Shown: in pieces, positions 5,840-51,381 of the stretch
Layout of the letters: every line of letters starts with the position of its first letter
Position numbering within the stretch: position 1 is the first letter of the stretch
Assembly: GCA_963930775.1 (NCBI GenBank)
Contig: OZ005693.1
Location: forward strand, 558,001-622,000
Origin: Cliona cf. orientalis
Taxonomy: Eukaryota > Porifera > Demospongiae > Clionaida > Clionaidae
Direction: 5' to 3'
DNA: 64,000 nt
Made by a program: the position numbers and the translations under genes
The notes under the pieces: generated by a model
What the model saw: the letters and a program-made list of their open reading frames with translations, nothing else
Told to the model about the DNA's origin: nothing
The model's database searches: none

Positions 5840-7816
5840 CACTGCCTGCCTACTGGATCCAGGCACTATGGCGAACAGTAGCTTTGGTGGGGTCTGGGGA
5901 TCCGGGACGAGACTGCGCGTATCCGAAATCCGAGAGCACCCACGTCACGAGAATGAGCTCCGCCCCCTCTGTGGACCCAGCCACACCTCTTAGCTAGTTT
6001 CACTCGACGCGAGCGATAGTGAAGAGACGGTTTCTCGATCATTAATTGCACTGAACGGTATTAGATTCAAACTTCTCCGACGATACAAATCAATCGGTAA
6101 GAATCCCGGGCTGGGTAAAAAATAATTAAATTTTAGCTAATTTTGTATCGCGCGAGGAAGACGCTCCGATCAGGGCACACCCCCACCCCACCCACGATAT
6201 ACACGATTCGTGATACTAAAATTATAATAATTATTATATTATTACACCAAGTTACTTACTGCCAGCATAGATAATTATAATATTTTTTATATCTACGCTG
6301 CCAGAGGTGACGGTGAAAATGCTCTGATATTAATATGATGCAACTGATTCATGATATTAAACTTGTTTCGTACTTTCAGTGACTGAGTTTGGGTTTCATA
6401 CACAGACTAAAACAGAATATATTATAGTAATTGTATAGTAATATCATTATTATAGCTAATAATGATAATATATATGGACTGCCGGCACTGGCCATGTCCC
6501 AGCATGGTCTGCATGGGTGCCGTTTATAAATTGACTGTCCATTGCTAATAATATTATTGTTTTGTGTGGGTATAGGTATGCACTGACAGATATTCATGTT
6601 TATAGGGGTACACTACTCTGTGGTCATTCCATCCTGTCCACAATGGTTTGGTTTCCCATGACAGGCTGACCAATAAAGTAGCCTGTAGCTACATTCTTGT
6701 CTAGACGGTCTGGCTGGCCAGCCCCTTCACAAGAGGGAGGAGGAGGAAGGTTGAGGTTCCTCATACCAAGGGCTTATAGACTCCGAGGAGAAGAGGGCAC
6801 ATACTAACTGCATGCCATACTATCTGTTTTAATACCTAGCAAAATTTAAATCAGACCATGGTTTGTAACTAATTATAGTAACACTGTGAGCTGCTATCTG
6901 GCCATGGACTGCACTATGGGTATTGAGGATTTATATACTATTTTTAGCCTAGATATGAATATTGCCAGGTGCCTACTACACGCCCTCTTCTCCTTTAGGC
7001 CCTTGCCAGATACCAAACAAGTTACATGATCATGAATAATAGTGGTGGCCGAAAATCACATACCGTTATTTTCCTCCTTCTAGGCTATCCCTATCCTCGT
7101 TATCTTAGTGTGACCTTATTAGGCTTATATGGGGTGATAACGGTCACACATGATTAAATTCATGCGTGCATGAATAAAAATGTGTATAGCTGTATGCATG
7201 ACCTGTGTAGTATATATCAAACCATGCGTACTTTATTAATGATGTACATGTTTTTGTTATCCTGTGTGCGTGCACATGCGCATGCGGTACAATAATCGAC
7301 CGATGATCCTGTCATCGCCATACATTGTTATCGTGGACAGAGATTGCCAGTCTGGCAGATCTTGAGGCATAATTATGGCCAAGCTTGAAACTAAAATGGA
7401 GGTGAGTCAGAGATCGAACGGTCTGAGGCTAATAGTGAAAGAAACCTACCATGATGGACAAAATTATAATACGTTTTTCGGTGTTGTCATACAGAGAACT
7501 GACTCAGTTTGATTTGCAAGAAATTTGAGGGGTGGACGGGCGGGGTATGGCACTGGATCTTTCTTCTCATATACTTTAACATGCTTTCATGCACATTTTA
7601 CCAGTAGCTATAGCATGCTCGTAGAGTTTCCCATGCAGCATAGGCTTGTGCCAAAGGTTCTGATAAAATTAATGTGGTGGATCAAGATTAATCAGTACAA
7701 TAGGGGGGTTATAGTATGACCATCCGGTCCCCAGGTCTAGATCTGATATAATATAATGTCATCAGGTTATCATTATGACTGGTGACTAATTCTAGGTTTT
7801 GCTGTGACACTGAGAA
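5840..7816. other. Intergenic and 5' region of NLR-A
   Basis: No supported coding exon. The part around 5930-6110 is shared with 34660-35290 in unit 2, and 6240-7110 with about 35400-36280, so this is the conserved upstream region of the NLR copies. About 600 bp (roughly 7130-7730) is present only here. A small ATG frame at 7376-7402 ends in a GTGAGT donor but cannot join the NLR start in frame, because stop codons lie just before the ATG at 7817 in both copies. An untranslated first exon is therefore likely somewhere in this stretch. Confidence 0.5.
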
Positions 7817-10800
7817 ATGCCATATTGGAGCATTGGAGAGTGGAGAGCCCGCATTGGGTCTTCATGGTGTGCCCTGGGCCGCCCATTCAAGATGAGGTCA
7901 CCATTTAGAGGAAAGACTCACAGAGGTTTGACGCTGAGTCAAGGAGTAGCAACACTCTTTCTATTGATAATGTCAATTGGAATCAATCTTGGGCTACGCA
8001 CTTTAGTAGCAAGGGGACATCACCTCCCACTATTGAGTGAGTGGTATGCATGGTCAACATAATTATTTTTAGCTTGCCATAATATCTGCCTTACAGTCAG
8101 TTCAGTGCATGGCTCATGCTTTTTTGCAGATTTTTCCAAAGGTGACAGAATGTATTTGATCAATCTTGGCATGGTTCTCACCCCGATCCTTCAGATTACC
8201 TCTGCTCTGGTCTACCAACTATTATCCATGGTCATCAAACGATCAAAATCTGGTGTTGGTGGTGATTTATCAGAGAGCCTCTCTTTCAGAACTTGTTTTG
8301 TTTATTACTCGATCTTCGTGATCCTGAAAATGACTAATCCAATACATCCAGTTCACTGGCTGATCATCTCAGGTAGCTATATGCTCTGCGGTATAGTATT
8401 ATTTGAGTGTGTGCAACATGCATACATAATATTACGTGCATACTAATAATATTATGTATTATATTATTTGCATGTGTGTGTATTAATCTTCATGTACATC
8501 TATAAATTAAATATTATGCATTCAGTCATACAGACAGTGGACTGTCTGATATCTTTGAGTGTTCTATGGAAAGCCCTGGCCAATAAGCAGGACCTGGTGG
8601 AGAAGCTGCATTATGTTGATACTAAAGTAGAAGTTGTGATGATGACCAAGCTCCAGGGGACTTGGGTATTGGCAGTGGCAAAAGCGGTGCTGGATGTTGC
8701 ATTATCAGTAGCAGCTTCTGTCATCTTATCTCTGCTGCTGATATCTGGAGATGTTGAGGAGAACCCTGGACCTGTTGGAGGTATAATAATAATAGTACCG
8801 TATGATATTATAACAGTGCTTGATGATACAACAAAATTGATAGCCTGATACGTTAGCGTATGTTTATATCATGTTCATTTACAGATATTAATTTTGATGC
8901 CATTGATACAACTGAATTGAGTAAGCTAGTTATCAATAATATCAGCTGCATGATCTTAACGAACTAAATTAAATTTGCTTGTCCTAGATGAGGGTGATCT
9001 GTCTAATATCATCGAGGAGATACACCCCATAAAATCAAGGTACTACGATCTTGGTCGATCACTGAATTTGAAAATAACAGACTTGCGAAAGATTCGTGAT
9101 GAGCATCCCAGTGATTTGGATGGTCTCGAAGATGTATTGCTCCTGTGGCTTAATCAAGAGTATGACCAGAAGAAACATGGTCCACCCACATGGCGGATGC
9201 TGGTGGAAGCTGTCAGCAAAAAGACTGGTGGAGACAATCATGAGCTGGCCAAACAAATTGCAGTGAATCATCCAGCAGGTATAGTACAATAATAATTATA
9301 ATAGCTGATTACTTGGATTGTATTATAAGTGTGCACCTACATGCACTGAATGTGGCTTATATATTATTATACTGTAAAAAAATGAAATTAATGGCATACA
9401 TGCATGTATAATCACCCTATAATAAACAGCCCCGTTTTTCATGCCTATAGTATAATATTATTATAAAGCATGCATGCTTGCAGTAATTTGGATTGGTGTC
9501 AATGACATGTTTGCATGAAGCTCAGCAGTTTCTCCAGTTATTGGTTATCAATTTATTACTGCATGTTGTAGAAATGATTAGACATAGTATTTAATGTGTG
9601 ACTTGAAAAAGTTGGAACTGTATATATATAACAATTATAATAATATTATAGAGAGTGCATGTGCATGTGTACGTAGTCTATTAACAATTTCTACAACTCT
9701 TCAAGTGTTTCATGAAACACTTTTTGTACTGCCATCCTAGTATCAATTTTTATGTGCAATGATAATACTATACTTATTGCCATAGTAGAACGACGATACC
9801 GGGAAATATCACGAGTTCATTGCCGCGTATTGTTACGAGTGCGAAGCACGAGTAACAATGCAAAAGGCAATGAACGAGTGGTATTTCCGAGGTATCGTCG
9901 TTCTACTATGGCAATAAGGTATTTATCGTATATTTAAGAAGCCTATTCTGTACTGGAGCTTTAGTAGTTCGAGCGGTAAAGCCAAGAAGGGACTGCTTTA
10001 AGGTACCATTTAATTGCGTGGGCGTGAGCGTCAGGAATGGCTAATTCAATTAGCGAATCGTGAAGGGGCGTGGCCAAAGAGGCCATACGAGTGCTTTTGG
10101 TCGAAGGTGGGCGTGTCCAGAATCGGCCAGGGATGATTATGCGCGTGTAATTAGCGACCGGAAGTGGCCCCTGAAGAAAAGGCCGGTAATTGCCCACATC
10201 AAAGCAAGATCAAAGCATTCTTTCTTAACTATTAACCGCAACGACAAATTAAACACTAAGTAGAAAAAAAAAAAGATTTTTAATTTAATTAATTCAGGGG
10301 GGAACTGGGAGCACTTGGGGACATAATTTTTGCACCGGCGCGCAGAATGGATCGAATGCAGAAATAATAATAATTATTTGACCTTCAGGAATTTTGATTC
10401 ACGCCTTAGAATCAAAGTTACGGCCCTTTGAAGTTTCCCCATATGTTTGTACAGGGAAGCCATGCGTTTGCAATGTTTCCGCCCACGCGCTACGTGAGGG
10501 GCGGGGCCACGCGCGCACATAAACGTGACGACCTTTACCAACTTTTTGACAAAATTGAAATTTAGGCTGCCTGCTTGCATTGTATGGCTCCACTATGCAC
10601 CCAGCTCAATTATAATGGTGGTTTTTGGACAATTTTTTTTCTGCTTAGTGTTCAGGTCGCCTTGAAAAAAAAAAAAAAAAAAAAAAAAAGCTTATTAGGC
10701 CTAATTAAGCATGTGGGCGTGTTCCTGGCACTGTGTGGAGTGTGTGCGTGTGCGTTAATGCAGGTTTTATTGCTTCCGATTGGGCGTGGCTTCACGGGCC

Positions 10801-13800
10801 AGTGCTTGGACATCGGCGCCTGGGACTTGGCCTCGGCGATAGGTGGGCGTGTCCCGGAAGCGGTGGTGACCTTTGAACCCGGCGAGGAGGCTTTGGGGGC
10901 GTGGCAGGAGGTCAAAGGTGAGGCCATGTCTGTTAATGAGGCACTGTACGGCGGTGCGATCGAGGGGCCTGTACGGCTGGACGGAAGCTGACGATGGTTT
11001 GAAGCGGATGTGGTTGCGATGACGTGTTGTTACTCCGCCCACACAGGAAATGAGGTGAGCACTTGCGTGGGCGGTGTGGCAGAACGGCCTCCAAGTGTTT
11101 GTGTGTGTTTTGGCCTTGAGGAAGCTGTGTGTTTTAATTGGGATTGATTGTGGGCTTCCGGTGGACATCCGGTGGTTAGTAGGCACTTGATTGAGAATGG
11201 TGGTCCTTGGGGAACAGGGTGGGGCTGTTTTGGGCGTGGCCTGGCCCCTCCCTTCCGGCTCGGCTTCCGGTCCATGGAGGATATTAAATGAACACTTCCG
11301 GCTCTAGCAGCCACACCCCTGAGACCTGTGCAATTAAAAGGGCGTGGTTACACAACATGCACCTCACTAATGACTTTGATGTGGTTTAGGTGTCATATCC
11401 CCCACCTCACGCCCACGCAATTTAATGGTACCTTAAGTTTTGGCGATGGCCGCCGTCATTTCAGGCACCGAAGACTAAGGCGTATAGCTAAGTAAGGTAA
11501 GGGCAGCGGCACCGTGGCTCATTTATCTAACTCGGGCAACAAAAATGACTGATAGCAGCAACTCACTTTCTTCTCTGGCGCTCAACGTTCAACCATTGTT
11601 CAACGTTTCAACACTGTATATATGGCGATCATGTGACGAACACGACTGATACGGATTTTGCACGTGACGAACACGACTGATATGGGAAATTATCATACGT
11701 GTTTCCACCCACGCGTTTCCCATATGTTTGTATTACGGGTCAAAGTTCAATATACGATAATATAATATATTTTTGATGTATAGCAGGAACTTCAACTGCA
11801 TCCCTGCAGGAGGACACTGAAGGTGAGCATATTGAAACAGTATACTTACATGCAAGACATTATATCATGAGCCAGACCATAATATTATTATTATTATATG
11901 CATAATTTGCACTGTATACAGAATCGGATGCAGATGTCCTCAGTATTAACAATATAAAAGAAGTCCTTGATGAGATGTGGGACTATCGTGCCAGATGGAA
12001 ATCAATAGGTATCGAATTGCGTGTGAACACTGGTACACTTGATGCAATCGAGAAAGACCACAGAATGGTTAATGACTGCCTTCAAGAAATGATTAAGCAC
12101 TGGCTCAGAAACAGTCCAAGACCAACTAAAGAAATTATCAGAGTAGCTCTTCAATCTAAGCTTGTCTCAAATGCGGAAGGTATTAATATTATGCAAGCCA
12201 GCTTAATTATAATAATAATTATAAATGGTTCTATAATAATATTATTGTTATGAGCTTCTATAATGAGTACACGATGATGCTAAGCTCATGCATTGCATGA
12301 TGAATATAGCTTAGCAGGATGAAATTTATGCCTGTTTAATACCCTGTATGCTCTTATAACTGTAGCTGATGATGGAAAGTCTGGAGTCACAGAATCAGAT
12401 GACAAGTTAGAAGAGTTTACTGCATACTTGAAATCACTCTACAAAGCCAAGACTCAAGCTAGCTTCAGTGGCGATGACCACTGGCCTCCTCCGGTAACTG
12501 ATAAAGTATTTAGTTTGGCAATGATCATGCCGGAACAAGTGCAGCGAAGAAATATTGATGATCATTTCATACGTGAGACTATTACAGGCAAGATAGATGA
12601 TATTTTACGAAGAAAGGTTCCCATCACACTTGAACAAATCTTTGAAAAAACTAAACAAAAGAAAATATTGATTGAAGGAGCCCCAGGATGCGGGAAAAGT
12701 ACCCTCTCTCTGCACATTTGCCATGAGTGGGTAGCTGATCGATTATTGAAAGAGTACAGTCAAGTCATACTGGTGAAATTGCGTGAAGAAGTAGTTCAAA
12801 ATGCCAAGAGCATAGCTGATTTGTTACCAAAACGAGACGGAACAATGGGACAGAATGCAGAGAAGGAGATAACTGCTCGTGATGGAGAAGGTGTTCTCTT
12901 CATTTTTGATGGCTGGGATGAGCTACCAGAGAAAGTACCAGGCCATTCCATCATCAGAGACATACTAGACTGTAAACAGCTACACAAAAGCTCTGTGATC
13001 ATCACATCTCGCCCCATCTCGTCAATGAATCTTCATAAGCTTGTTAACATTCGAATTGAAATCTTGGGATTCACAAAAGCTGAACTGCAGAGATACTTTA
13101 CTGGATGCCTGGGAGATGATCATGGCAAGGTCAAGCAACTGCAACAAAGAATCAAAGAAAACCCAGTTGTAGAAGGCAGCTGCTACTTACCTTTGAATGC
13201 CAGCATCCTGGTCCACCTTTTCAAGTGTGATGGTGTACTTCCACATACTCAATTTGGCATTTTCTCTGCACTTATCCGTAACTGCATATTTCGGCATCTG
13301 AAAAAGAATGAGCAACATGATATACCTGGAATAAAGTCACTGAGTAAGCTTCCAACTGCTATTCAAAGTCAGTTCGAACGTATTTGTGAGATGGCATACA
13401 AGGGAGTGATAGAAGACCACATAACCTTTGACCTTGAATGCAGTTTCAACACTCTTGGTTTACTTCAAGGAGTAGAAAGCTTTGCTAGTGGAATGCCAAC
13501 ACACTCCTACAACTTCCTCCATCTCTCCATACAAGAACTGTTGGCGGCCATTCACATGGCTACCAAGATGGATCCGAGTGAGCAGGTGGCACAATTCAAG
13601 GAACTCTTTGGTCGGGCTCGCTTTAGCGCTGTGTTCCAGTTTTATGCTGCCAAAACTAAACTCAAAACACAAGGAATGGATGAAATTGTTACCTTAGCTG
13701 TACAGAAGTGTATGCGAGACAAGTACGGTAAAGTAACAGTATTAACACCTCGTTCTGGTACCAACTCTGGTCTGGATTCAGGAGGCTCCAGCTTGGGCCA

Positions 13801-16642
13801 CAAATCCCAACCGCTTCTTCTCTCATTGCTACACTGTCTCTTTGAAGCTCAAGATGAGACTCTGTGTCAGCTGGTAGCCAAGGAACTCAAAGGGGAGCTG
13901 CAAGGTCTACAGAGTATCAGCCTCAGTCCAGCAGATTGTCTGTCCATAGGCTACTTTCTCACCCATTGTAGACAATTCAAAGTGTACCTAGTAGGCTGCT
14001 CCGTGGGTGCTGATGAATGCAAGGCTTTATTCAGGAAGGATAAAAAATATGACCTTGAATATCTTAGGTACGTGAATTTGGCGCTAGTCTGGCCATAGGT
14101 TACTTGGTCTAAGGTCTGGTGTACTAGACTCACGCGCAAAATTGCGGAGGGTGTAGCTCGCCAGATATTGCTTGTGCATGTGTATAGATATAGTTTCTAG
14201 TTGGGTGGGGCTAGGTGGTCTTGGCCAATCAAATTTGATGTTACGTATGCGGTGGGAAGCTTAATTTCTGGCAGCTGCACGTTTACTGGCACTGTTTTAC
14301 TTGAAGTGAAAGTAGTTGGTGCAGCTGAAGTTCTGTGTCGTGATAGACGTGACACTGTACTGAACTGAGAGGCTCAATGATATAATATAAAGGAAAATGG
14401 TACGTGTATTAATTGTTTTGCCAGGTTGTATTAAAAATTTTTGAGCACGAATCTATTTATATTGTTCGACAAACTACCGTTCTTTTAGCTGTTTATTCAT
14501 CTATGAATAGCCACAAATGTCCCACTTGGGCACCTTTAGTTCACAGGCTGGTGCAATTCACCACTCGCAGTTTTACTGAAACAGCCTTAGGCTTAATTGT
14601 CACCTTCAGAGCCTACTATAAAAACTGTCTATTGACACCATACATACGTAACCTTCGTGGGAAGGCGTTAGTTGGGCGGAGCCCAACCTTCGCGGGGAGA
14701 GGGGGAAGGTTGGGAATCACGCGTATACCCGGATTTGTTCCACTGCCACTTATGTAACTTGTAATCTCAAGTATCGTCCTACTGGCAGCAACAGCCGCTT
14801 CCCGAACTGCGTTCGCCGTGAACATCACCAACCAGCCGATTCACGCTTCTCGCTAAGCTCGCGGTTAACAGCCACTTGAGCCACTTGAATCCTGCAATCT
14901 GATTGGACTGCAATTTTTCTGCAGTTGGAACAAATCCGGGTATACGCGTGATTCCCAACCTTCCCCCTCTCCCCGCGAAGGTTGGGCTCCGCCCAACTAG
15001 GAAGGCGTATGGCTAGCCAAGTGTAAAACGTACATAATTTGTCAGTCAGTAGCCTGCCATCCAAAGCAAGCTAGTCTGCTCCCACGTTACGCAGCGTTTA
15101 GTTCTTTCCACGCATTCATCCTGAAAGAACTGAACGCTGCGTTGGGAGCGGTCTGGTATGGAGCCTAAAAGCAAGCAGATGAACAAGTGTTTTTAAATTT
15201 AAAGTAGCCTCTACAAACCAGCCCTGCCTTTTAAACCAATAGCTTCGGGCTTCTTTTTGAAACCGCCATAGCCAAAGGCAACAGCTAGCCTTTGGCTAAA
15301 TGCAGCTGCTGCCTAGCGGCGTTAATTAACTTTAATAACATCCGGTAATTAATGTGGTTGCCATGATAACATCGAACTTTACCACAACTTGTACCTTGTA
15401 CAGTCCAGTCCTTCTTGCTATTACTTACTATTGTTGCCATGGTGATAAGATTAAAATTCCTGTCATTAACAATAACAACATTAATAAACACCTAGACTTA
15501 ATGCTAGTTACCTACTTATTATAATTAAACAGCTAGAGAGTAGCTACAATAATGTTGTCTACTTTAATACTAGACTAGCTAGGTGAGTTAGTGTGTCATG
15601 GTGATCGGTGTCTTCCTCTCTCCTTCCACTCACAGCTTCTGGGACAACTTCATGGGCACTGAAGGAGCCAAGGCCCTGTCCGACACCTTCAAGACAATGG
15701 CTAATCTTAAGACGTTGAAGTAAGTTGACCTAGCTACAATAATGTTGTCTACTTACTAGACTAGCTAGGTGAGTTAGTGTGTCATGGCAGTCGGTGTCTT
15801 CCTCTCTCCTTCCACTCACAGCCTCGGCCACAACTACATCGGCGATGAAGGAGCCAAGGCCCTGTCCGACGCCATCAAGACAATGGCTAATCTTGAGGAG
15901 TTGAAGTAAGTTGACCTAGCTACAATAATGTTGTCTACTTACTAGACTAGCTAGGTGAGTTAGTGTGTCATGGCGGTCGGTGTCTTCCTCTCTCCTTCCA
16001 CCCACAGCCTCCACAAGAACCGCATTGGCGATGAAGGAGCCAAGGCCCTGTCCGACGCCATCAAGACAATGGCTAATCTTCAGAGGTTGGGGTAAGTTGA
16101 CCTAGCTACAATAATGTTGTCTACTTACTAGACTAGCTAGGTGAGTTAGTGTGTCATGGCGGTTGGTATCTTCCTCTCTCCTTCCACTCACAGCCTCAGG
16201 GGCAACTCCATCGGCGATGAAGGAGCCAAGGCCCTGTCCGACGCCATCAAGACAATGGCTAATCTTGAGTACTTGAAGTAAGTTGACCTAGCTACAATAA
16301 TGTTGTCTACTTACTAGACTAGCTAGGTGAGTTAGTGTGTCATGGCGGTTGGTATCTTCCTCTCTCCTTCCACTCACAGCCTCAGGAGCAACTCCATCGG
16401 CGATGAAGGAGCCAAGGCCCTGTCCGACGCCATCAAGACAATGGCTAATCTTAAAGATTTGCGGTAAGTTGACCTAGCTACAATAATGTTGTCTACTTAC
16501 TAGACTAGCTAGGTGAGTTAGTGTGTCATGGCGGTCGGCCTCTCCTTCCACCCACAGCCTCTGGGGCAACCGCGCCATTACCGACGAAGGAAGAAGAGTT
16601 CTTAGAGAAGCTGCCAAAGAGAAAGGCATAACGTTTAAATAG
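7817..16642 (+). CDS. NLR-A: multi-pass membrane leader - 2A - Death - Death - NACHT - LRR
   Basis: Innate-immune type NACHT-LRR protein, 1181 aa from 14 exons: 7817-8036, 8130-8372, 8526-8780, 8885-8920, 8988-9278, 11787-11822, 11922-12179, 12366-14067, then LRR exons 15636-15719, 15822-15905, 16008-16091, 16194-16277, 16380-16463 and 16558-16642 (TAG). All junctions are GT-AG and the sum is divisible by three. The ATG at 7817 was chosen because TGA lies two codons upstream in both copies. Residues 1-236 have four or five hydrophobic segments (about 43-60, 82-104, 127-141, 149-172, 205-226) and end in GDVEENPG/P. Two Death-like domains follow (exons 5 and 7). The NACHT exon has Walker A GAPGCGKST, Walker B LFIFDGWDELP and sensor VIITSRP. 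The LRRs are 28-residue repeats. Death domains suggest adaptor recruitment; ligand unknown. Confidence 0.9.
8747..8773 (+). other. 2A ribosome-skipping motif in NLR-A
   Basis: Encodes GDVEENPGP, an exact match to the 2A consensus D(V/I)ExNPGP, preceded by a hydrophobic helix (LSVAASVILSLLLIS). In 2A peptides the bond between the last G and P is not formed, so translation would release a 236-aa membrane peptide and restart at Pro237 with the Death-NACHT-LRR part. Activity is inferred from the motif; the same nine residues are kept in NLR-B. Confidence 0.88.
9773..9918. mobile_element. 146-bp foldback MITE in NLR-A intron 5
   Basis: Arms start CTTATTGCCATAGTAGAACG; the 27-bp outer part is perfectly inverted and the similarity continues inward (TATTTCC, CGAGTTCATTGCC). 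No clear target duplication. Absent from the matching intron of NLR-B. Confidence 0.8.
10002..11432. mobile_element. 1.43-kb TTAA-flanked element in NLR-A intron 5
   Basis: Terminal inverted repeats of about 27 bp starting GGTACCATTTAATTGCGTGG, flanked by TTAA at 9998-10001 and 11433-11436. A TTAA target is typical of piggyBac and Kolobok elements. It is GC-richer than the surroundings and contains a poly-A run at about 10664-10689. No transposase is recognisable, so it is probably non-autonomous. It is missing from NLR-B. Confidence 0.8.
14669..14999. mobile_element. 331-bp MITE with TAG termini and 9-bp TSD in NLR-A
   Basis: Inverted repeats of about 72 bp starting TAGTTGGGCGGAGCCCAACC. 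It is flanked by the perfect 9-bp repeat GGAAGGCGT (14660-14668, 15000-15008). The NLR-B intron has one uninterrupted near-copy of this target at about 42200, an empty site. TSD length and the TAG terminus match the 5.6-kb transposon. Confidence 0.92.
15636..16642 (+). repeat. LRR exon array of NLR-A: six exons, 186-bp period
   Basis: Exon starts are 15636, 15822, 16008, 16194, 16380 and 16558. The first five steps are exactly 186 bp each apart from the last of 178, made of an 84-nt exon (28 codons) and a 102-nt intron (94 nt in the last). Introns are almost identical to each other. The exon core GDEGAKALSDAIKTMANL is nearly invariant, while residues around the beta strand (x-x-N and L-x-x-L) differ between repeats. 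The last exon ends the protein and is diverged. Confidence 0.95.
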
Positions 16643-36371: not shown

Positions 36372-37341
36372 ATGCCATATTGGAGCATTGGAGAGTGGAG
36401 AGCCCGCATTGGGTCTTCATGGTGTGCCCTGGGCCGCCCATTCAAGATGAGGTCACCATTTAGAGGAAAGACTCGCAGAGGTTTGACGCTGAGTCAAGGA
36501 GTAGCAACACTCTTTCTATTGATAATGTCAATTGGAGTCAACCTTGGGGTACACACTTTAGTAGCAAGGGGACATCACCTCCCACTATTGAGTGAGTGGT
36601 ATTATGCATGGTCAACATAATTTTTAGCTTGCCACAATGTCTGCATGCCTTACAGTCAGTAACTGTTCAGTGATGTGTGCATTTCTTACAGATTTTTCCA
36701 AAGGTGGTACCATCCCTGACGAAATGTATTTGATCAATCTTGGCTTCGTTCTCACCCTGATCCTTCAGATTACCTCTGCTCTGGTCTACCAATTATTATC
36801 CATAGCCATCAAAAGATCAAAATCTGGTGTCGGTGGTGATTTATCAGAGAGCCTCTCCTTCAGAACCTGCCTTGTTTATTACTCGATCTTCCTGATACTG
36901 AAAATGATTAATCCATCAATGCATCCAGTCCACTGGCTGATCCTCTCAGGTAGCTACAGGAGTGCTCGCATATTAATAATTATTTTGAATGAGTTGTATG
37001 CAACATGCATATGTATAATTATTATGCATAATGTAACACGTATTAATTTTGTGATGCATAGTTTGTGTAGGTATACGTCTTCTTCATGTACATGCATCTA
37101 TAATACTATTATGCATTCAGTCATACAGATAGTGGACTATCTGAGATCTTTGAGTGTTCTATGGAAAGCCCTGGCCAATAAGCAGGACCTGGTGGAGAAG
37201 CTGCATTATGTTGATACTAAAGTACAAGTTGTGATTATGACCAAGCTCCAGGGGACATGGGTGTTGGCAGTGGCAAAAACGGTGCTGGATGTTGCGTTAT
37301 CAGTAGCTGCTTCTGTCATCTTATCTCTACTGCTGATATCT

Positions 37342-37368
37342 GGAGATGTTGAGGAGAACCCTGGACCT
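37342..37368 (+). other. 2A motif in NLR-B
   Basis: Encodes GDVEENPGP after the same hydrophobic helix as in NLR-A. All nine residues are identical in both paralogues although other positions of this exon differ (KVQVVIM against KVEVVMM), consistent with selection on the motif. Confidence 0.85.
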
Positions 37369-40300
37369 ATTGGAGGTATAATCAATATGTTACATTGCTT
37401 GACGATAATATAATATTTACAAAAATAGCCAGATAATAATATTATATATCATGCGTAATGTTAATGTCTGTTCACATAGATATTGATTTTGATTCCATTG
37501 ATACAACAGAATTGAGTAAGTTATTAATAATTTATGTACCAACTGCACGATGTTGAGAAATTAATATTATGCTCATCCTAGACGAAGGTGATCTGTCCAC
37601 AATCATTGATGAGATACTGCCCTTAGAATCAAGGTACTACAATCTCGGTCGATCACTGAATTTGAAAATAACAGACTTGCGAAAGATTCGTGATGAACAT
37701 CCCAGTGATTCTGATGGTCTTGAAGATGTATTGCTCCTGTGGCTTAATCAAAAGTATGATAAGAAGAAACATGGTCCACCCACATGGCGGATGCTGGTGG
37801 AAGCGGTCAACCGGAAGAGTGGTGGAGATAATCACGAGCTGGCCGAACAAATTGCTTTAAATCATCCAGCAGGTAGTAGCTAATTATTTGGATTGCATGA
37901 AGTGTGATGCACGCACTGGTGATGATTAATGTCATTATAATATTATGCCATGTATATATGTAATAAAGATGCCTCCTTAATACCTTGGCATGGAGAATTG
38001 TATCCTATAGTATATAGCCCTAGTATATATTATACTCTTTACCGAAGTTTTGTTGTAATATTATTGTAAACTATAATGGTGATACATTCTGTTTCCAGCA
38101 AAGAAAAGACGTACTGATAAAGGTGAGTAAAACAATAACTAGCAGTATTAAGTTTCTAGTCACCATCTGTGTTCGTTCATACCTACCACTTCTGCCTACA
38201 AATAGTATATTATTATTATAGCTAGTTATTTGGATCGTATCAAGTGTGTACCTGCATGCAAATGGGATACAATAATTGGTAATGCATCAGGCATTATGGA
38301 AATGTGGCTAAATTAATGACAGCCTGATTTTTATCCCTATAAAGACTCGTGATTTACGACTTAGAAGTGCATTTTTTTGTTCATCAATATAGAGGGGAAT
38401 TATATATAAGCACACATGCCAAGGAAGTGACCAATCTATTACTGTATGGTGGGTAATTTTTGGGAGTGCTGATTTTCGTGGAAATTTAGAGAAGGCCCTC
38501 AGAATTAAATTTTATGGTTTTAAATTTCGTGACAGTAATCCAGTCCAGGGTCGTGGTGCTGCACTAACGATGATATAATCGATACACGCACTTGATCTCG
38601 CTCGCGCTCTTCTTTGTTTAACTAAGCCACATCTGCAAAGAGAGAGCATGAGAGAGAAGAATATTGTGTCAAAGATGCCATCAGCTGGATGGCAGTGGCT
38701 ACTGTTACTTGCTGAAAACAGTTGATCGTGCTGCGTTGCCAGCCTTGATGTTTTGGCCACACCCATCATCGATATCTGGATTCATGTGGATAATATCACC
38801 ATAGGTACTAGCTTTCGTGGGTGCGAAATTTTCATGACTGCCAAGTCAACCATGCACGAAAATAACGAAAATTAGCACCCCACGAAAATATGGTATTTGA
38901 TCCTTGCACTCCAGCTTCAAAAAATTAGTAGTTATAGAAATAATTGACCAGATGCATCCCTATATAGGTTTTACCACATCCCTAGTAGCTTCATTGTATA
39001 TAGTAAAGGGTCACTATATATGCATGTAAGTAGTATACTTAGTATTATGTAATGCTTTAAAGTGCCAAAACTTGAAGATGAAACTTTGGGACAGATGACA
39101 AACTTTAAAATATTTATAGAACCATTCATATTCACCTGTATCTGTGCCAAATTTCACGATTTGATACCCTTAGCTTACTGGGCAAATATTGCTTGTTTCA
39201 GAAAAGTAAATTGCTACTATAGGGATGTAACCTGTTAGTACACTTGGAATGTACAGTAGTCTGTAAATTTAATTTTGGCATATCACCTTTCAATGCACAT
39301 TAACATTTTTAGCAGGAAGTTTGACTGCATCCCTTCAGGAGGAAACTAAGCCAAAGCATTGTGACACTGAAGGTGAGCATCTTGAAGCTGTATACTTGCA
39401 GACATTATCATGACTAATTGCACTGTAGAATCGGATGCAGATGTCCTCAGTATTAACAACATAAAAGAAGTGCTTGATGAGATGTGGGACTATCGTGCCA
39501 GATGGAAGTCAATAGGTATTGAATTGTGTGTGGACACTGGTACACTTGATGCAATCGAGAAAGACCACAGAATGGTTAATGACTGCCTTCAAGAAATGAT
39601 TAAGCACTGGCTCAGAAAAGGGTCAAGACCAACTAAAGAAATTATCAGAGTAGCTCTTCAATCTAAGCTTGTCTCAAATGCAGAAGGTATTAATAATTAT
39701 TATAATATCATGCAATCAAGCTTAATTATAATAATTGTAATAATATTATGGTTCTGTAATATTATTATGAGCTTCTATAATGAGTGCACGATGATGCTAA
39801 GCTCATGCATTGCATGGTGAACATAGCTTAGCAAGATGAAATTTATGCCTGTTTACTACCCTGTATGCTATAACTGTAGCTGGTGATAGAATGTTTGAAG
39901 TCACAGAATCTGATGACAAGTTAGAAGAGTTTACTGCATACTTGAAATCACTCTACAAAGCCAAGACTCAAGCTAACTTCAGTGGCGATGACCACTGGCC
40001 TCCTCCGGTAACTGATAAAGTGTTTAGTTTGGCAATGATCATGCCGGAACAAGTGCAGCGAAGAAATATTGATGATCATTTCATACGTGAGACTATTACA
40101 GGCAAGATTGATGATATTTTACGAAAAAAAGTTCCCATCACACTTAAACAAATCTTTGAAAAACCCGAACAAAAGAAAATATTGCTTGAAGGAGCCCCAG
40201 GATGCGGGAAGAGTACCCTCTCTCTGCACATATGCCATGAGTGGGTAGCTGATCGATTATTGAAAGAATACAGTCAAGTCATACTGGTGAAATTGCGTGA

Positions 40301-42685
40301 AGAAGTAGTTCAAAATGCCAAGAGCATAGCTGACTTGTTACCAAAACGAGACGGCACAATGGGACAAAATACAGAGAAAGAGATAAGTACTCATGATGGA
40401 GAAGGTGTTCTCTTCATTTTTGATGGCTGGGACGAGCTACCAGAGAAAGCACCAGGCCATTCTATCATCAGAGACATACTAGAATGCAATAAACTACACA
40501 AATTTAAAGCTCTGTGATCATCACATCTCGCCCCATCTCGTCAATGAATCTTCAAAAACTTGTTAATACTCGAATTGAAATCTTGGGGTTCACAAAAGCT
40601 GAACTGCAGAGATACTTTACTGGATGCCTGGGAGATGATCATGGCAAGGTCAAGGAACTGCAGCAAAGAATCAAAGAAAATCCATTTGTAGAAGGCAGCT
40701 GCTACTTGCCTTTGAATGCCAGCATCCTGGTCCACCTTTTCAAGTGTGATGGTGTACTTCCACATACTCAATTTGGGATTTTCGCTGCACTTACCTTTAA
40801 CTGCATATTTCGGCATCTGAAAAAGAAGAAGGAGCAACATGCTGGAATAAAGTCACTGGATAAGCTTCCAACTGCTATTCAAAGTCAGTTTGAACATATT
40901 TGTGAGATGGCATACAAGGGAGTGATAGAAGACCACATAACCTTTGACTTAGAACGCAGTTTCAACACTCTTGGTTTACTTCAGGGAGTAGAAAGCTTTG
41001 CTAGTGGAATACCATCACACTCCTACAACTTCCTCCATCTCTCCATACAGGAACTGTTGGCGGCCATTCACATGGCTACCAAGATGGATCCGAGTGAGCA
41101 GGTGGCACAATTCAAGGAACTCTTTGGTCGGGCTCGCTTTAGCGCTGTGTTCCAGTTTTATGCCGCCAAAACTAAACTTAAAGCACAAGGAATGGATGAA
41201 ATTGTTATCTTAGTTGTACAGAAGTGTATGCAAGACAGTAAAGTAACAGAATTAACACCTCATTCTGGTATCGACTCTGATCTGGATTCAGGTGGCTCCA
41301 GCTTGGGCCACAAATCCCAACCGCTTCTTCTCTCATTGCTACACTGTCTCTTTGAAGCTCAAGATGAGACTCTGTGTCAGCTGGTAGCCAAGGAACTCGA
41401 AGGGGAGCTGCAAGGTCTACAGGGGATCAGCCTCAGTCCAGCAGATTGTCTTTCCGTGGGCTACTTTCTCACCCATTGTAAACAATTCAAAGTATTCCTA
41501 GAAAGCTGTTCCATGGGTGCTGATGGGTGCAAGGCTTTATTCAGGAAGGATAAACAATATGACCTTGAATATCTTGAGTACGTGAATTTGGCGCTAGTAG
41601 TCCAGCCATATGCCATAGTAAGGTCTGGTGAACTAGACTCTCCTCTATGCGCGCACGCGCAAAATTGTGGAGGGTGTAGCTCGCTAGGCTAGGCATGGCA
41701 TTGCTCGTGCATGTGCATATGTACCGGTAGTTGGGTGGGGCTCGCTGGTATTGGCCAATCAAATTTGATATCACGTACGCGGTGGGAAGCTTAATTTCTG
41801 GCAGCTGCACGTTTACTGGCAGTGTTTTATTTTGCAAGTACAAAGTGAAAGTAGTTGGTGCAGCTAAAGTTCTGTATCGTGATAGACGTGACACTGTACT
41901 GAGAGGCTCGACTATATCGCACTATTCGTGGACACATTTATTAAGGAAAATGGTACGTGTAAGCTTAGTTATTTTGCCAGGTTGTATTAAATTATATAAT
42001 TTTGAGCACGAACCCCCCCATTCTTTTAGCCGCGCATGTATTATCCAGCTATTTATTTAATAGCCACAAATGTAACGTAAGCTTAGTCTAAATTACCTAT
42101 GGTGCAATTCACCAATCGCAGTTTTAAAAAGCCTTAGGCCAGAGCCTATACTATAAAAACTGCCATTTAACTGCGTACATACGTACCGTCGCTACCTTCG
42201 TGGGAAGGGCGTCGTTGACAGCAGTAGCCTGCCCTCCAAAACAAGCAGACCATAAGATATTTAGACTACGCAAATTATCTATGAGCAGATGAACAAGCGT
42301 TTTTAAATTTAAAGTAGCCTACGAACCAGCTCTGCCTTAAACCAACAGCTTCGGGCTTCTTTTTGAAATCGCTATAGCCTAAGGCAACAGCTACGCCCTT
42401 GGCGAAATACGGCTGTTGCCTAGCGGCGTTAATTAACTTTAATAACATCCGGTAATTAATGTGGTTGCCATGACAACATTGAATTTTACCACCACTTGTA
42501 CCTTGCCCAGTACAATAATTAATCAATTACTATTCCTCACTATTGTTGCCATGGTGATAAGATTAAAATTCCTTTAAATTGTTTTTATTAACAATAACAA
42601 CATTAATAAACACCTAGACTTAATGCTACTTACCTACTTATTATAATATGGCGGTCGGTGTCTTCCTCTCTCCTTCCACTCATAG

Positions 42686-45583: not shown

Positions 45584-46044
45584 TTATCTGCATCAAAATA
45601 AAATCCAGACCATTGAGCAGTTGAGGAGATATACGGCTGTTTTTTGAACATTACAAATCATTTTTCTGCCACATGTATACCAACAGAGCCAGGGGCAGTT
45701 ACAATTAAAATTTGTTATGACAAAAGGGACAGACCTATAATATTATTATTATAATTAAGAAGAAGGTCTGGAAGGTCTTGATGCAGCTTAGCCTCGTGCC
45801 CAGGCTCTCGGGAGGGGGGAGGGGGAAAGAGAGCCTGGTACAGACCGTTCGCGCATGCGCCTAATTTATTCAAACTTTTGTGGCTTATGATGTCATACAC
45901 CAAACGCGTGATATGGTCTTACGCGAATATACGTAAATGGAACTGGACACGCCCATTATCATGAATATTAAGATTGCGCTCGCGAATGGCAAATTGCGCG
46001 AAAGCGAAGCCACGTGTATGACCATCGTTTGTTCCGTGGTTAAT

Positions 46045-49000
46045 ATGGCTGGTCAAGTTTGTCGTTTGTGCAGATCTACGGTTTCACCAACACACTACTG
46101 CTCTTTAGTTAGCCCATGGGCACTCCAGAATAACTTAAGTTCTCGACTAGAAAATTTGATAGGGATACAAGTGGATTCGACCGATGGATTGCCTCATCTT
46201 ATCTGTAGCAAGTGCAAGAGGCAGTTCTTGACATTGGAGAAAGCATCAGAAAATCTGACTGCATTTCGAAAGATGGCACAAGAGTCTTTCCATGCATTTA
46301 GTGTCAGAGGTGAATTGAAACGTAAAAAGGAATGTAGCACAGCTATTGGTGTTTCACCAGATATAGTAAGAGCCAGACCACCCTTGAAACGATTGACAGC
46401 AAAAAGATTGGAATTCAACAGTAAGCTGACAAGAATTAATAATAATTATTATTAAAAGCAATAACTCTTAAAATTTATAGTAGATGAAAATTCAACCAGT
46501 ACTGTCAAATCGCAACTAGACTGTACTATTCCAGTTCAAGCTCCGCTGATTGTTGAAGATCCTCTCCCCCTGCATGAATGTGGTAAATATTCAACAAAAA
46601 TATTCAATCACAGTAGTAGTGTAGCCAACAATAATATCTTTTTTGGAAGGTAATGTGGCCAAATCAGGAAACATGGAGACTAAATCCTCCTCGGGTGTGT
46701 TAAAGGAAGTCACAGTAAGGCATTAAACCATTAATTAATTCTTAATAGCATCTCCTACCCACTCCCTTCCCCAAACTAGGTGTGTGTATCAACTCCTAGT
46801 CGTTCAGTCCCATGGAAGACAGTACTAGCTAATAATGAAGGGAAAATAGGGAGAGCCCTTGCAGGTGGTCATCTTCCATCACTAGCAAAGAGTATTGTAT
46901 CACACAATGAGCTGCGTGAGTTGGTATTTTTACACTTTCTAGACGAAGTTAATGCAGAATGTAGCAAACTATGCCAACTCAAGCCCCAGCCATCACTATT
47001 TAGGAAGATACCATCAAGCATGTATGATAATTTCACCTGGAATGTTATTGTAGAGCATCTGAAAGAAAGGGCTCCCACTTTTTTCCGAGTGCTGTCCACA
47101 GTTGCATCTCACAGCGATCACCGTAACAAGAAGAAAGCAGGCAATGCACACAATCCAGGAATTTCAATGGCAGCTGCAGTGATCCTGAAAGAGCGCAATA
47201 GAGAGATGAATGGAATACAGTCGCTGGTATCCCTTACAATGTTTGCTACACATGTCAATAAGCAGGTATAGTACAACTATATAATATTATAATTATAGAC
47301 ATACACTTACTACAAGCACAATACAGGTGTATACTCGGCTTAATCACTTGAAGGTGTGTGTCAGCTATAATGCAACACTCACTCTTATTAAGGAAATAAG
47401 TCAGCATCATGCATCTCCGTTACAGCAGTGGATAGCCGATGGTGTCATATTCAAATTCTGGGGTGATAATGTAGATCGCAAACGGAAAGTCCGAGATGTT
47501 CGTTCAGACCATCAAGGTGAAATGCTTCATATGTACAGCATCCTAGTAGGGAGAAGCCGCACGCAAACACAAGCTGAAGCACTTTCCAGAACTGGCTCTG
47601 TGGGCAGTCTAAGGTCCATGAGTAGTTCCTTGTTTTTGCCTTCTGCAGAGGATATACAATGTGTAAAAAATAATTTGGTTATACTGGTCAGTAGAGTATT
47701 AACACAGTATATTAAGGAGCTTCAACCCCTATCTAAAGTAGTTCCAAAGCATATCATGCATGAATATTCAGCTGAAATGTCCAAAAAATCCGAAGTTGTA
47801 GTTCTGGATGTGCTGATGAAAAATGAAAACTGCAGCAGTGACATGGTTGACATTATGAAGACCATGCAAGAGTATCTGGGAGAAAGTTATCCCAGTGAGC
47901 ATCGGGTGGCATCAGGAGGGGATCATCTGACTTGCGAGCGTCAATTGGGTGCACAGAGGCATATGATGGATGGAGACACTCCAGTAGAGAGGCTGGAACT
48001 TCTAGAACCTCAAGTGGAAGATTGGCACTGTCTAGTGTGCATGCTGGGAGTAAGTAGACAATTACAATGACATTGTGTTTCTAATTAGAGAGCCCTAATC
48101 ATGTGGCCTGATGAATCAGCATAATATAGCCAATGTAATATTATGCATGCACACACACACACACACGACACATACATGTACACACACATTTTTGTCCACT
48201 GTACACATGCACAATAGGTCATTTGGAAACAATTGTACAAGCAATCATCAGCCAGTGACCATGGCACACTTGGATTTTTCCGGTGTAAGCTTAATCGTAC
48301 CACTGTAAACGTAGATGTGAAAAAAGATGTGAATGCCACACTGGACTTCTTTCTCACAGTCGTTAAGGGTCACTTACTTGCAGTGGCGTGTGAAATATTG
48401 GGCATCACAAAGCTTGATTCTAAGGTGAATCTGCCACCCAATGTTAAGCATGGTCAGGAGAGCGATAAAAGCCAGTATATTAGGAATCTAGCCTCCCAGG
48501 TAGTAGGAAGATGTACCTTAATAGACAAGGCAATCACTGGTGAAGTAGTTACGACTACAGATGATCACAAATACAACTATGCCCGAACACTGTGCCACTA
48601 TGGGGCCTTGATAATGGAATACCTAGATACATGGGAGCATGCAGATGGAAAGCGATCATTTCGATGCTGGCGACTCTTCCTGCCCCACTTTCATGCATCA
48701 GGACGCACTAAATACTCTCTACAAGCTTTGTGCCTACAATTTCAGGTGAAATGTGTTCTTTCCCCACAACTTGCTCACGAAATAATGTGGCATAGGTATG
48801 TTAATACAAGGGGAGGTTTAGGCAGGAACATACCATGTGATTTATATAATGAGCATGTAAATAAGCTTATCAAACAAATTATAGTAAACATGGGGCCTAA
48901 CCTAACAAAAGAAGCTCTGCAAAGGTCAGCCCGCTCTGTTAGCACTCTTCAGCGCTTATGTGCACAATTTGACAAAACCAGTGACCTTCCTATTGAAGGT

Positions 49001-49258
49001 GGGAAGCATTCCACATACAGTGACGCAAAGGATGTCAGCACGGTAGTATCTACTGTCCTAAGTAATAATCTACTTTCAGTATCAGACAAGAAAAGGCAAC
49101 ACACAACATTTCCAAAAATGAATTTGAATCCCCTTAAAAGCTGGAGTAAAATCAAGTGTGAACAATGGATAGACAAGAAAAAGCAAGACTACCTTAAGTT
49201 CAAAGGCTCATTAGAGGAAGACTCAAGTGGATCTGACACTGATTCTGATGAACACTAG
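46045..49258 (+). CDS. Transposase-like protein with N-terminal zinc knuckle (DUF6589-like)
   Basis: Six exons: 46045-46420, 46481-46582, 46650-46714, 46780-47265, 47327-48049, 48218-49258; sum 2793 nt, 930 aa, all GT-AG. The start was taken at the ATG giving MAGQVCRLC; an in-frame ATG at 45937 would add 36 residues. The N-terminus has C-x2-C and C-x2-C pairs (CRLC, CSKC) like ZAD zinc domains of DNA-binding proteins. The C-terminal two thirds has FWGDNVD, GGDHLTCERQLG, EDWHCLV, and RCWRLFLPHFHASGRTKYSL, the kind of pattern I associate with the uncharacterised DUF6589 family common in cnidarians and sponges. The conserved acidic residues could form a DDE-type centre; this is inference. Its place between intact inverted repeats makes it the transposase candidate. 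Confidence 0.8.
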
Positions 49259-49295: not shown

Positions 49296-51103
49296 TCATG
49301 TATCAATATTAATTGAATTTGCACATATATCACAACATAACAGTTTGTCATCACCTGGTGTAGCACAACCAGGAGCAAAAAAGTCAAGCAACCACTTTCG
49401 ACGGCAGACTGTGGTATTCTCCAAGTATTTCCGAACATCGATAACTTCTCTATCATGAAGGCACTTGGGCTCTTTCTTAACTGGACAATCTGAAGGCTTC
49501 CAGAAAACAACAGAACGTGCATTATCACCACTACGACCACTTCTTCCACTTTCCTGGAAGTAATCATCGATGCTATGCGGAGCACCATAGTGAACTACTA
49601 AGTTAACTTCTTTAATATTGACCCCCATGCCTAAAGCCACGGTAGCAAAAACAACACGAACAAGGCCATCACTTTGAGTTAGACTCTTTAAAATAACGTC
49701 TTTGTTATGCTGTGGTGTACAGGAATGAAACATCCCAAATATCCGATTATCACTAATCTTTTGGGCTCCATCTGGGAAGTACGATTTATCGCCAAGCTCA
49801 GAATGGAAGTAGGCATACAAATCAGCACAACTATTTAGGGTGCGACAGTACACAATTGCTCGTGGGGCTTTGTTTCTCCTTTTATTCAGTTGTTCAATCA
49901 AGAACTGCAAATCCTTACTGATTTCAGTTCGTGAAAGTACCTCATAGTAGATATTTGCTCGATCAGGTGATGTCATTACTGTTGCACAAGCATGCATTTC
50001 CAGATTGGAAATTACCTCTTCCTTGATAGAACGTGTAGCAGTAGCAGTGCATGCCACGTAAGGTGTGCCATGAGGAACCAGTGCCCTTAGCTCATGTAGT
50101 CGGCCATACTCTGAACGAAATTCTTTGCTCCTATTAAAAAAATGAAGAGCAGGGAAACGTAATTACGATAACTATTATAGTTCAGACTTAGCCTAACATG
50201 TATAGGGTCTTAGTATTCATATTGTGTTGATAGCAGCCAAGCTGTACTAGAGCACCACAGATCTTTCACCCCATACACAGTAGTAAGCTAGCAGAAAGAG
50301 AAAGTAACCAGGACAGCCGCTGGGAATCGACCCCAGCGCCTCCATCTACAGGGTATACAAATTCACAGGTAGCGTCTTACCCGCCTTTAACATAGAAACC
50401 CTGGGAAGAGATATGAGCTCTCATATACAAGCACATGCACACACTTGCGTGTGCACACATGCACACTGGCACACGCAAAGACGCACACACACACACACCC
50501 ATAAAAAATTTCACCTCGTGTACAGTAGTGTATCATAATATTGAAACAGAATTTTTATAGTTCTTACCATTTGGACACACAGTGGGCTTCATCAATGACT
50601 ACAGCTACAATTCTGTCAGCTATTGTTGGTGTATCAATGTGTTCTCTCCACTTCGAACTGATAAGTGCCTCTGGAGATCCAAATAGAAAGCTGCATGTGT
50701 AGAAATCTCTCTCGGTGGCAAGAAAATTCATCACACTGGCACACTTTGAGGACATAATTGCTGCCTCCACTCCTCTGTGACGAAGACTTGAGACTTGATC
50801 TGCCATCAAGGATACAAGTGGTGACGCGATTATCACTAAGCTTTTAGTTTGCCCGTGCACTCTTCCCAGCTTGTGATCGAACAAGAAAGGTAACACTTCA
50901 TAGATAATAGATTTGCCAAAGCCAGTTGGTAGGAGCACGAACACGTCCTTGCCATCCCACACGTGCTTCACAGCCTCTTTTTGCTGGGCTTTAAGAGTGA
51001 AGTCTTTGTTCTCTAACTGACATAAAGCAAAAGACAGGGCCTCTTCAAAATCGATTTCGTTAGCTGTAGCGTTTCCAGGGATCAGTCCTCGATCGGTAGC
51101 CAT
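49296..51103 (-). CDS. RecQ-type DNA helicase carried by the transposon
   Basis: Superfamily 2 helicase, 456 aa from two exons (50568-51103 and 49296-50130) joined in the VSKW/S codon. Motifs in order: Q-like region, Walker A LPTGFGKSIIYE, LVSLMADQ (motif Ia), DEAH box VVIDEAHCVSKW, motif III CTATAT, motif IV AIVYCRT, and motif VI QESGRSGRSGD. It ends with cysteines (CCDIC) like the RecQ zinc-binding subdomain. No HRDC domain, so it is shorter than cellular RecQ proteins. It is transcribed towards the transposase and starts 200 bp inside the right terminus. Probable role: unwinding during excision or repair of the element. Helicases linked to DNA transposons are known (e.g. the AcademH lineage, from memory); relation to those not tested. 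Confidence 0.88.
50308..50392 (-). ncRNA. tRNA-like sequence in the helicase intron (possible SINE head)
   Basis: On the minus strand a B-box-like GGGGTCGATTCCC sits in a stem GCTGG/CCAGC, preceded by TTAAAGGCGGGTAAGACGC resembling a tRNA D-arm. No clean acceptor stem or anticodon arm is visible, so it is not a functional tRNA. It may be a tRNA-derived SINE that was inserted in the intron. A (CA)-rich stretch follows at 50430-50500. Confidence 0.35.
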
Positions 51104-51381
51104 GACCAGGAACTTGCCTTGTTGACACTCGCACGATCTCACACGCGAACTAATATGCGCGATCAGCCTTGCGCGCGTTCGATTTGTGGTGCAATGCGCA
51201 ATATATCCCGCGATTAGGATGACGTCACAGGACTTACATATACGGAAAGTATCTCCAGTGATATACAAAATTACCGGAATGTTGGTAAATTAAGCGCATG
51301 CGCGAACGGTCTGTACCAGGCTCTCTTTCCCCCTCCCCCCTCCCCCCTCCCGAGAGCCTGGGCACGAGGCTAGATGCAGCT

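Follow-up and report, generated by a model that had tools for sequence, protein, structure and literature searches.

A leader-2A-NLR gene and a second copy in the window

The window analysed here is a 64,000-nucleotide stretch (C5:558001-622000) of the Cliona cf. orientalis genome, of which 216.8 Mb in 149 contigs were searched. On its forward strand we found a gene model of 13 exons (7817-16642) with GT/AG borders and a single open frame of 1153 codons, which begins just 3' of an in-frame stop at 7811 and ends in a TAG stop at 16640-16642. The first seven introns are phase 1 and the rest phase 2. By frame, residues 1-236 form a leader ending in GDVEENPG, and residues 237-1153 an NLR of 917 residues, the first of which is P. 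The features of this gene are as follows.

7817..8036, + strand: leader exon 1, with the start ATG, the conserved N-terminus (MPYWSIGEWRARIGSSWCALGRP...) and hydrophobic segment 1
8130..8372, + strand: leader exon 2, with hydrophobic segment 2 and the weaker segment 3
8526..8780, + strand: leader exon 3, with hydrophobic segments 4 and 5 and the 2A site
8747..8773, + strand: 2A/StopGo peptide GDVEENPGP (core match 8750-8772), predicted to separate between residues 236 (G) and 237 (P)
8885..8920, + strand: exon 4, a short linker (INFDAIDTTEL and split codons)
8988..9278, + strand: exon 5, first Death domain (23.2 bits against a cut-off of 22.6; Pfam, exon alone)
11787..11822, + strand: exon 6, a short linker (from the gene model)
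11922..12179, + strand: exon 7, second Death-like domain (17.1 bits, E = 0.0059, under the Pfam cut-off; exon alone)
12366..14067, + strand: exon 8, NACHT (70.6 bits) and an NLRC4_HD2-like region (22.1 bits, below the cut-off of 33.1)
15822-15905, 16008-16091, 16194-16277, 16380-16463 and 16558-16642, + strand: five LRR-type exons of the 84-nt type, the last ending in the stop

A preliminary description of this DNA had placed a membrane leader, a 2A site, two Death domains and a NACHT-LRR part in one reading frame. Its first five exons and their junctions proved correct (7817-8036, 8130-8372, 8526-8780, 8885-8920 and 8988-9278, with phase 1 GT/AG introns between and after them), and the frame is open through leader, 2A and NLR over all 13 exons. 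The 236 codons said to lead into GDVEENPGP hold as a residue count only if the 2A is included; 228 precede the last eight, so that the figure was off by the length of the motif. The first Death domain passed its cut-off, while the second fell below it on its own; taken together, the two Death exons reached 29.8 bits (Pfam). NACHT and the five LRR-type exons lie downstream of the 2A as described, with NACHT at 70 bits against a Pfam cut-off of 26.7 and NPHP3_N also just over its own cut-off. With NACHT over its cut-off, an N-terminal Death domain and C-terminal LRRs, the downstream product has the composition of the NLR class, and its matches among solved structures included NLRP3 among the best for exon 8, and NLRP3 and ribonuclease inhibitor over the LRR part. 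Stretches of the form DLDYxxxD that resemble the exon 4 linker were found at several distant loci.

The intron between exons 5 and 6 contains an element (9998-11436) with 31-nt terminal inverted repeats starting TTAAGGTACCATT. Elsewhere in the window, RecQ-like helicase exons lie on the reverse strand (49296-51289; DEAD 1e-16, Helicase_C 2.5e-16, RecQ_Zn_bind below cut-off), and a zf-AD ORF and a DUF6589 ORF, possibly a domesticated or mobile element, on the forward strand (45937-49258).

The window also holds a second copy of the leader, followed by its own Death and NACHT sequence.

36372..37375, + strand: second leader copy (exons 36372-36591, 36692-36949 and 37121-37375; 2A core 37345-37367; start of exon 2 placed by eye)
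37480..37872, + strand: linker exon (37480-37515) and first Death exon (37582-37872) of the second copy, from exon matches
39840..41692, + strand: NACHT region of the second copy, in two overlapping frames (39840-40517 and 40508-41692)

Since the inverted repeat had only two matches in the window, the second copy is without the intron element. Its NACHT frame changes relative to the first copy at 40500-40520, which is an assembly error or a broken gene.

Predicted membrane topology of the leader

The leader had been described as having four or five hydrophobic segments, and both numbers were recovered in the window copy, with four segments at Kyte-Doolittle values of at least 1.6 and five, one of them weak, at values of at least 1.2. 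Across 20 leaders, the lower threshold gave five segments in 19 and six in one, and the higher threshold gave three segments in 3, four in 14 and five in 3. At the higher threshold, composition-shuffled sequences had four segments in 50 of 1000 trials and five in 1 of 1000. Segments 2-4 are only moderately hydrophobic (scores of +2.2 to +2.9 on an approximate scale of membrane insertion), which, together with the shuffle and threshold counts, makes the number of passes uncertain. Hydrophobicity peaks in the last segment, directly ahead of the 2A.

Basic residues favour the cytosolic side of a membrane (positive-inside rule). Counts of K+R in the successive non-membrane stretches of the window leader, with boundaries cut by hand, were 8, 3, 3, 0 and 5. 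This pattern suggests that the N-terminus is cytosolic, which would put loop 4 in the cytosol as well and the end after segment 5 in the lumen. The membrane-tethered unskipped receptor of the preliminary description is therefore doubtful, as a cytosolic N-terminus and five passes would place an unskipped NLR in the lumen, and tethering would be expected only with segment 5 uninserted.

2A sites in the window and across the genome

With up to two mismatches allowed, chance would give the window 0.02 occurrences of the 2A pattern; two are present, both exact, at 8750 and 37345. The core octapeptide D(V/I)ExNPGP is exact in the window gene, and the hexapeptide directly upstream of it is LLLISG. 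Viral L-rich upstream motifs end in (A/S/C)G before D, and one of them (motif 6) proved active when assayed in vitro (PMC12846837, available portions). Judged by motif comparison, LLLISG fits this L-rich class with its tested active member. In one leader copy (L050, C1:1618 kb), the site reads GNVEENPGP instead of GDVEENPGP, so that p12 is naturally N; according to the available part of PMC12846837, sites with N at p12 showed activity in the viral contexts in which they were assayed.

Genome-wide, we detected 105 DVExNPGP and 47 DIExNPGP matches and none for either reversed-pattern control, the totals being DNA counts that include sites in likely mobile elements. Of 147 listed 2A sites, 70 lacked both an upstream leader exon and a scored Death match in the 6 kb downstream. 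Three of six inspected members of this class (L053, L054 and L057) had Death- or NACHT-like sequence by eye, indicating that the class is mixed. At three sites (L056, C9:3682 kb; L052, C1:21263 kb; L055, C16:748 kb), the 2A starts what appears by eye to be a mobile-element ORF, with PHD-finger-like repeats, also by eye, in that of L056. Copies of GATATAGAAGTGAACCC or GATATAGAAGTAAACCC are dispersed across C1 at 18-36 Mb. A retrotransposon origin of the leader-linked 2A is unsupported, since Death and NACHT sequence, and not a retrotransposon ORF, follows the 2A there.

Linkage of leader, 2A and Death exons

The first-exon core W-R-(A/V)-R-I-G-x-x-W matched 44 genome sites (reversed control, 0), and three further exon-1 matches from the leader search brought the number of first-exon places to 47. 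Linkage was counted with 100 listed of the 105 DVExNPGP matches, all 47 DIExNPGP matches and 150 scored of 293 Death candidates. Among the 2A matches listed, an exact 2A lay within 10 kb downstream on the same strand at 45 of the 47 first-exon places (within 6 kb at 44; median distance over the 45 places, 942 bases), and none lay on the opposite strand within 10 kb. One of the two remaining places, C1:1619413, has the GNVEENPGP of L050, and the other, C4:11324395 (L051), had no exact 2A in the stretch examined. At the latter locus (C4:11324k), sequence like the window's intron transposon was seen by eye between the leader exon and the Death exon.

From the Death side, the best 45 matches of the 150 scored among 293 candidates had a 2A within 6 kb upstream in 40 cases and downstream in 0, although the query came from a 2A-led gene, which biases the top of this list toward 2A-led loci; over all 150, the 2A lay upstream in 71 and downstream in 6. 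For three 2A sites with a leader exon (C4:4066793, C11:8374519 and C11:8430395), none of the scored Death matches lay within 6 kb. Eleven distant loci all showed the first exon (MP, then W or LA, then the WRxRxG core) with D(V/I)ExNPGP downstream, in stretches cut from known exon-1 matches to mostly known 2A sites and thus not an independent test.

Two 2A sites lie in consecutive exons at two loci (L041, C10:760 kb, positions 1226-1618; L042, C10:774 kb, positions 1072-1298; reverse complement), and these exons can be joined in frame in phase 1, with junctions placed by eye. Such loci are predicted to encode a single-segment peptide of 46 and 49 residues, respectively, between leader and NLR, and hence three products per mRNA. 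Different long open exons, several with hydrophobic segments, end in SGDVELNPGP and are followed by Death-like exons at L001-L003, L008, L053 and L054; 2A sites of this type are clustered on C13 and C18, and the leader type of L001 occurs at four loci.

Conservation of the leader family

The genome search with the leader returned 115 exon-level matches. What had been described as one gene is instead a gene family with dozens of loci in this genome, and the observation of a leader, a 2A and an NLR in series is confirmed and extends wider than first noted. We tried 23 close leader loci, including both window copies, and counted 20, leaving out C5_3784k and C5_5392k (exons missing from the stretch taken) and C5_1037k (internal duplication). 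In this last copy (L033, C5:1037k), the leader is duplicated around hydrophobic segment 5, and its Death match contains stops. In all 20 counted leaders, the three exons join without a stop, the frame is kept and D(V/I)EENPGP is present; the start of exon 2 was assigned with a simple AG rule, which sets it a few codons too late in some of the copies.

Pooled over the 20 copies, dN/dS was 0.42 for the leader and 0.33 for exon 1 alone, and the first Death exon gave 0.24 (11 of the 20 loci). The first 20 codons had the lowest pN/pS of 13 stretches compared (0.14), and a value of 1.82 was reached in one 20-codon stretch that opens exon 2, an exon whose start is placed with some uncertainty. Variable columns in the 20 leaders were distributed 83/67/112 by codon position (p = 0.003). 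For the genomic alignment, 16 of the 20 loci were taken and one longer one was dropped, leaving 15. Divergence of the 14 paralogues in it from the window copy was 7.3% of sites in leader exons compared with 21% in introns, and 9 of 11 distinct exon gaps were multiples of three compared with 21 of 83 intron gaps; the other 2 exon gaps were not, although exon-wise extraction kept the frame in 20 of 20 leaders. The direction of these substitution and gap counts is that expected from coding sequence, with shared ancestry and perhaps gene conversion making the trials non-independent.

The leader had no match in Pfam (E up to 10), PHROG (E up to 1) or solved structures. Searches of viral contigs gave no relative, and neither prokaryote nor viral contigs contained its N-terminal motif as an exact DNA pattern. 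A viral or prokaryotic origin is unsupported by these searches. The conserved N-terminal motif appears to be the best candidate for an interaction site of the leader.

Predicted products and alternative explanations

The anatomy, frame, conservation and linkage of these genes, from which we infer splicing, skipping, topology and a partnership of the two products, probably reflect a host gene family in which one spliced mRNA with one frame encodes a five-segment membrane protein, a 2A/StopGo site and Death-Death-NACHT-LRR, the 2A separating the polytopic protein from a cytosolic NLR. In such a gene, the leader would be synthesised first and inserted co-translationally in the ER membrane with its N-terminus cytosolic. 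With the ribosome at NPGP, segment 5 and the 2A would still be within the exit tunnel, because segment 5 is less than 30 residues from NPGP, and the last exposed part would be loop 4, on the cytosolic side. Skipping of the Gly-Pro bond would release the leader to insert, and translation would resume at Pro, yielding a free cytosolic NLR. The 2A would in this way keep a soluble receptor out of the ER, and each receptor would be made beside, and with, one membrane protein. Where skipping fails, the NLR would go to the lumen, or be membrane-tethered if segment 5 fails to insert.

It is possible, if still doubtful, that the two products form a two-subunit receptor, in which a polytopic membrane subunit would serve as sensor, guarded target or anchor via its conserved WRARIGSSWCALGRP end, and StopGo would deliver the cytosolic NLR one-to-one and side by side with it, adding a third peptide (~46-49 residues) at tandem-2A loci. 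We compared leader and Death identities over 19 loci falling into two Death-exon length classes (12 and 7 loci). Leaders were about 92-94% identical both within and between the classes, Death exons were about 73% identical between them, and leader and Death identities showed no correlation over the 19 loci (r = -0.13), so that tight co-evolution of the two products is not favoured. As leader identity is independent of Death class, the leader cassette seems to have been homogenised or swapped independently of the downstream part. A uniform leader can be read as a membrane module shared by different NLRs, or as counting against a co-adapted pair.

The same uniformity, which is as expected for a generic module, bears on the view that the leader is a by-product that brings the mRNA or ribosome to the ER or loads the translocon, and is then discarded by the 2A. 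Elsewhere in the genome, 2A and Death sequence follow long open exons of other types, as this view would allow, but purifying selection on the leader and its strongly conserved N-terminal motif suggest a role for the protein itself, and we regard a mere by-product as unlikely. We give similarly little credence to dual targeting as in the sea urchin, with the leader as an elaborate targeting sequence and partial skipping producing a cytosolic NLR together with a membrane- or lumen-delivered fusion. The multi-pass leader far exceeds a signal sequence, and five passes with the N-terminus inside would leave an unskipped NLR lumenal. Partial skipping has a precedent in S. purpuratus NLRs (PMC4981915, available portions), and canonical octapeptides can act in this way too, but the hexapeptide upstream of the window 2A fits the L-rich class whose one tested motif was active in vitro (both from the portions available of PMC12846837).

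An internal start in exon 3 would give a short signal-anchor-2A resembling the sea urchin form and leave the upstream exons to an alternative transcript. In-frame ATGs do lie about 40 codons before NPGP, ahead of segment 5, in the window copy and the paralogues inspected. This explanation is nevertheless very improbable in view of exons 1 and 2 that are open in 20 of 20 counted leaders, an exon 1 dN/dS of 0.33 with the lowest pN/pS of 13 stretches in its first 20 codons, and a first exon followed by a 2A at 45 of 47 places among the 2A matches listed. That the leader exons are a separate upstream gene and the 2A a coincidence can be dismissed almost entirely, as the pattern was expected 0.02 times per window and is exact at both copies, 45 of the 47 first-exon places show the linkage, against none for the opposite strand (among the 2A matches listed), and the intron phases match.

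Relation to known systems and implications

The proposed host gene family, in which a 2A would separate a polytopic leader from an NLR, has its nearest counterpart in S. purpuratus, where a 26-residue N-terminal signal-like 2A was reported for about 35% (85/241) of NLRs (Roulston et al. 2016, PMC4981915, available portions). In that system, according to the same portions, skipping yields a cytosolic protein and its failure an exocytic fusion. The sponge genes resemble these SpNLR2A in placing a 2A-like sequence before the Death, NACHT and LRR parts of an invertebrate NLR, in being multigene and in the predicted ER targeting by a 2A-bearing N-terminus. They differ from SpNLR2A, as far as the available portions of that paper describe it, in having a leader of 236 residues over three exons, which carries several hydrophobic segments and a conserved N-terminal motif of its own, and in the tandem 2A at two loci; the SpNLR2A position of the 2A within about 26 residues of the N-terminus contrasts with 236 residues in the window gene model. 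A 2A before NLRs is thus already known from S. purpuratus, and the polytopic leader before the 2A appears to be the new aspect. Such a leader was not found in the titles and abstracts of the 2A, StopGo and sponge-NLR literature searched; Rao et al. 2025 on eukaryotic 2A, outside this scope, may list some such genes.

With viral StopGo/2A of the L-rich type, the genes share the DVExNPGP core and an LLLLSG-like upstream hexapeptide, here LLLISG, with SG before D (PMC12846837, available portions). Unlike the viral sites, they are cellular multi-exon genes and encode no viral polyprotein. APE-type non-LTR retrotransposons are also said to carry 2A sequences, reportedly described by Odon et al. in 2013. 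These likewise have D(V/I)ExNPGP, and some 2A sites in this genome resemble mobile-element ORFs (L056, by eye), whereas at the leader-2A-NLR loci the splice sites match and the 2A is followed by Death exons.

Expansions of Death/NACHT/LRR genes with predicted transmembrane domains have been described for the NLRs of Dysidea avara, and for A. queenslandica as cited there (PMC12909245, available portions), and the present genes share with those models, as described in these portions, both the expansion and the membrane segments. The text of PMC12909245 on Dysidea avara contains 0 occurrences of '2A-like' and 0 of 'NPGP'. NLR models of this kind, with predicted transmembrane domains, could be unrecognised leader-2A-NLR genes.

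Cellular use of StopGo has been called never or only rarely seen (PMC12846837, 2026, available portions), with which the 105 and 47 exact D(V/I)ExNPGP DNA matches in this one genome contrast. If the two-subunit reading is true, cellular StopGo would, with dozens of such genes, be a mainstream route to immune receptors in this sponge. Should skipping prove real, gene models of animal NLRs whose N-termini are predicted to be transmembrane may be fusions that have been described incorrectly. The family would then offer a natural system for studying the switch of an ER-bound ribosome between a membrane product and a cytosolic product, and for asking whether an immune receptor and its membrane partner come at a fixed ratio from one message.
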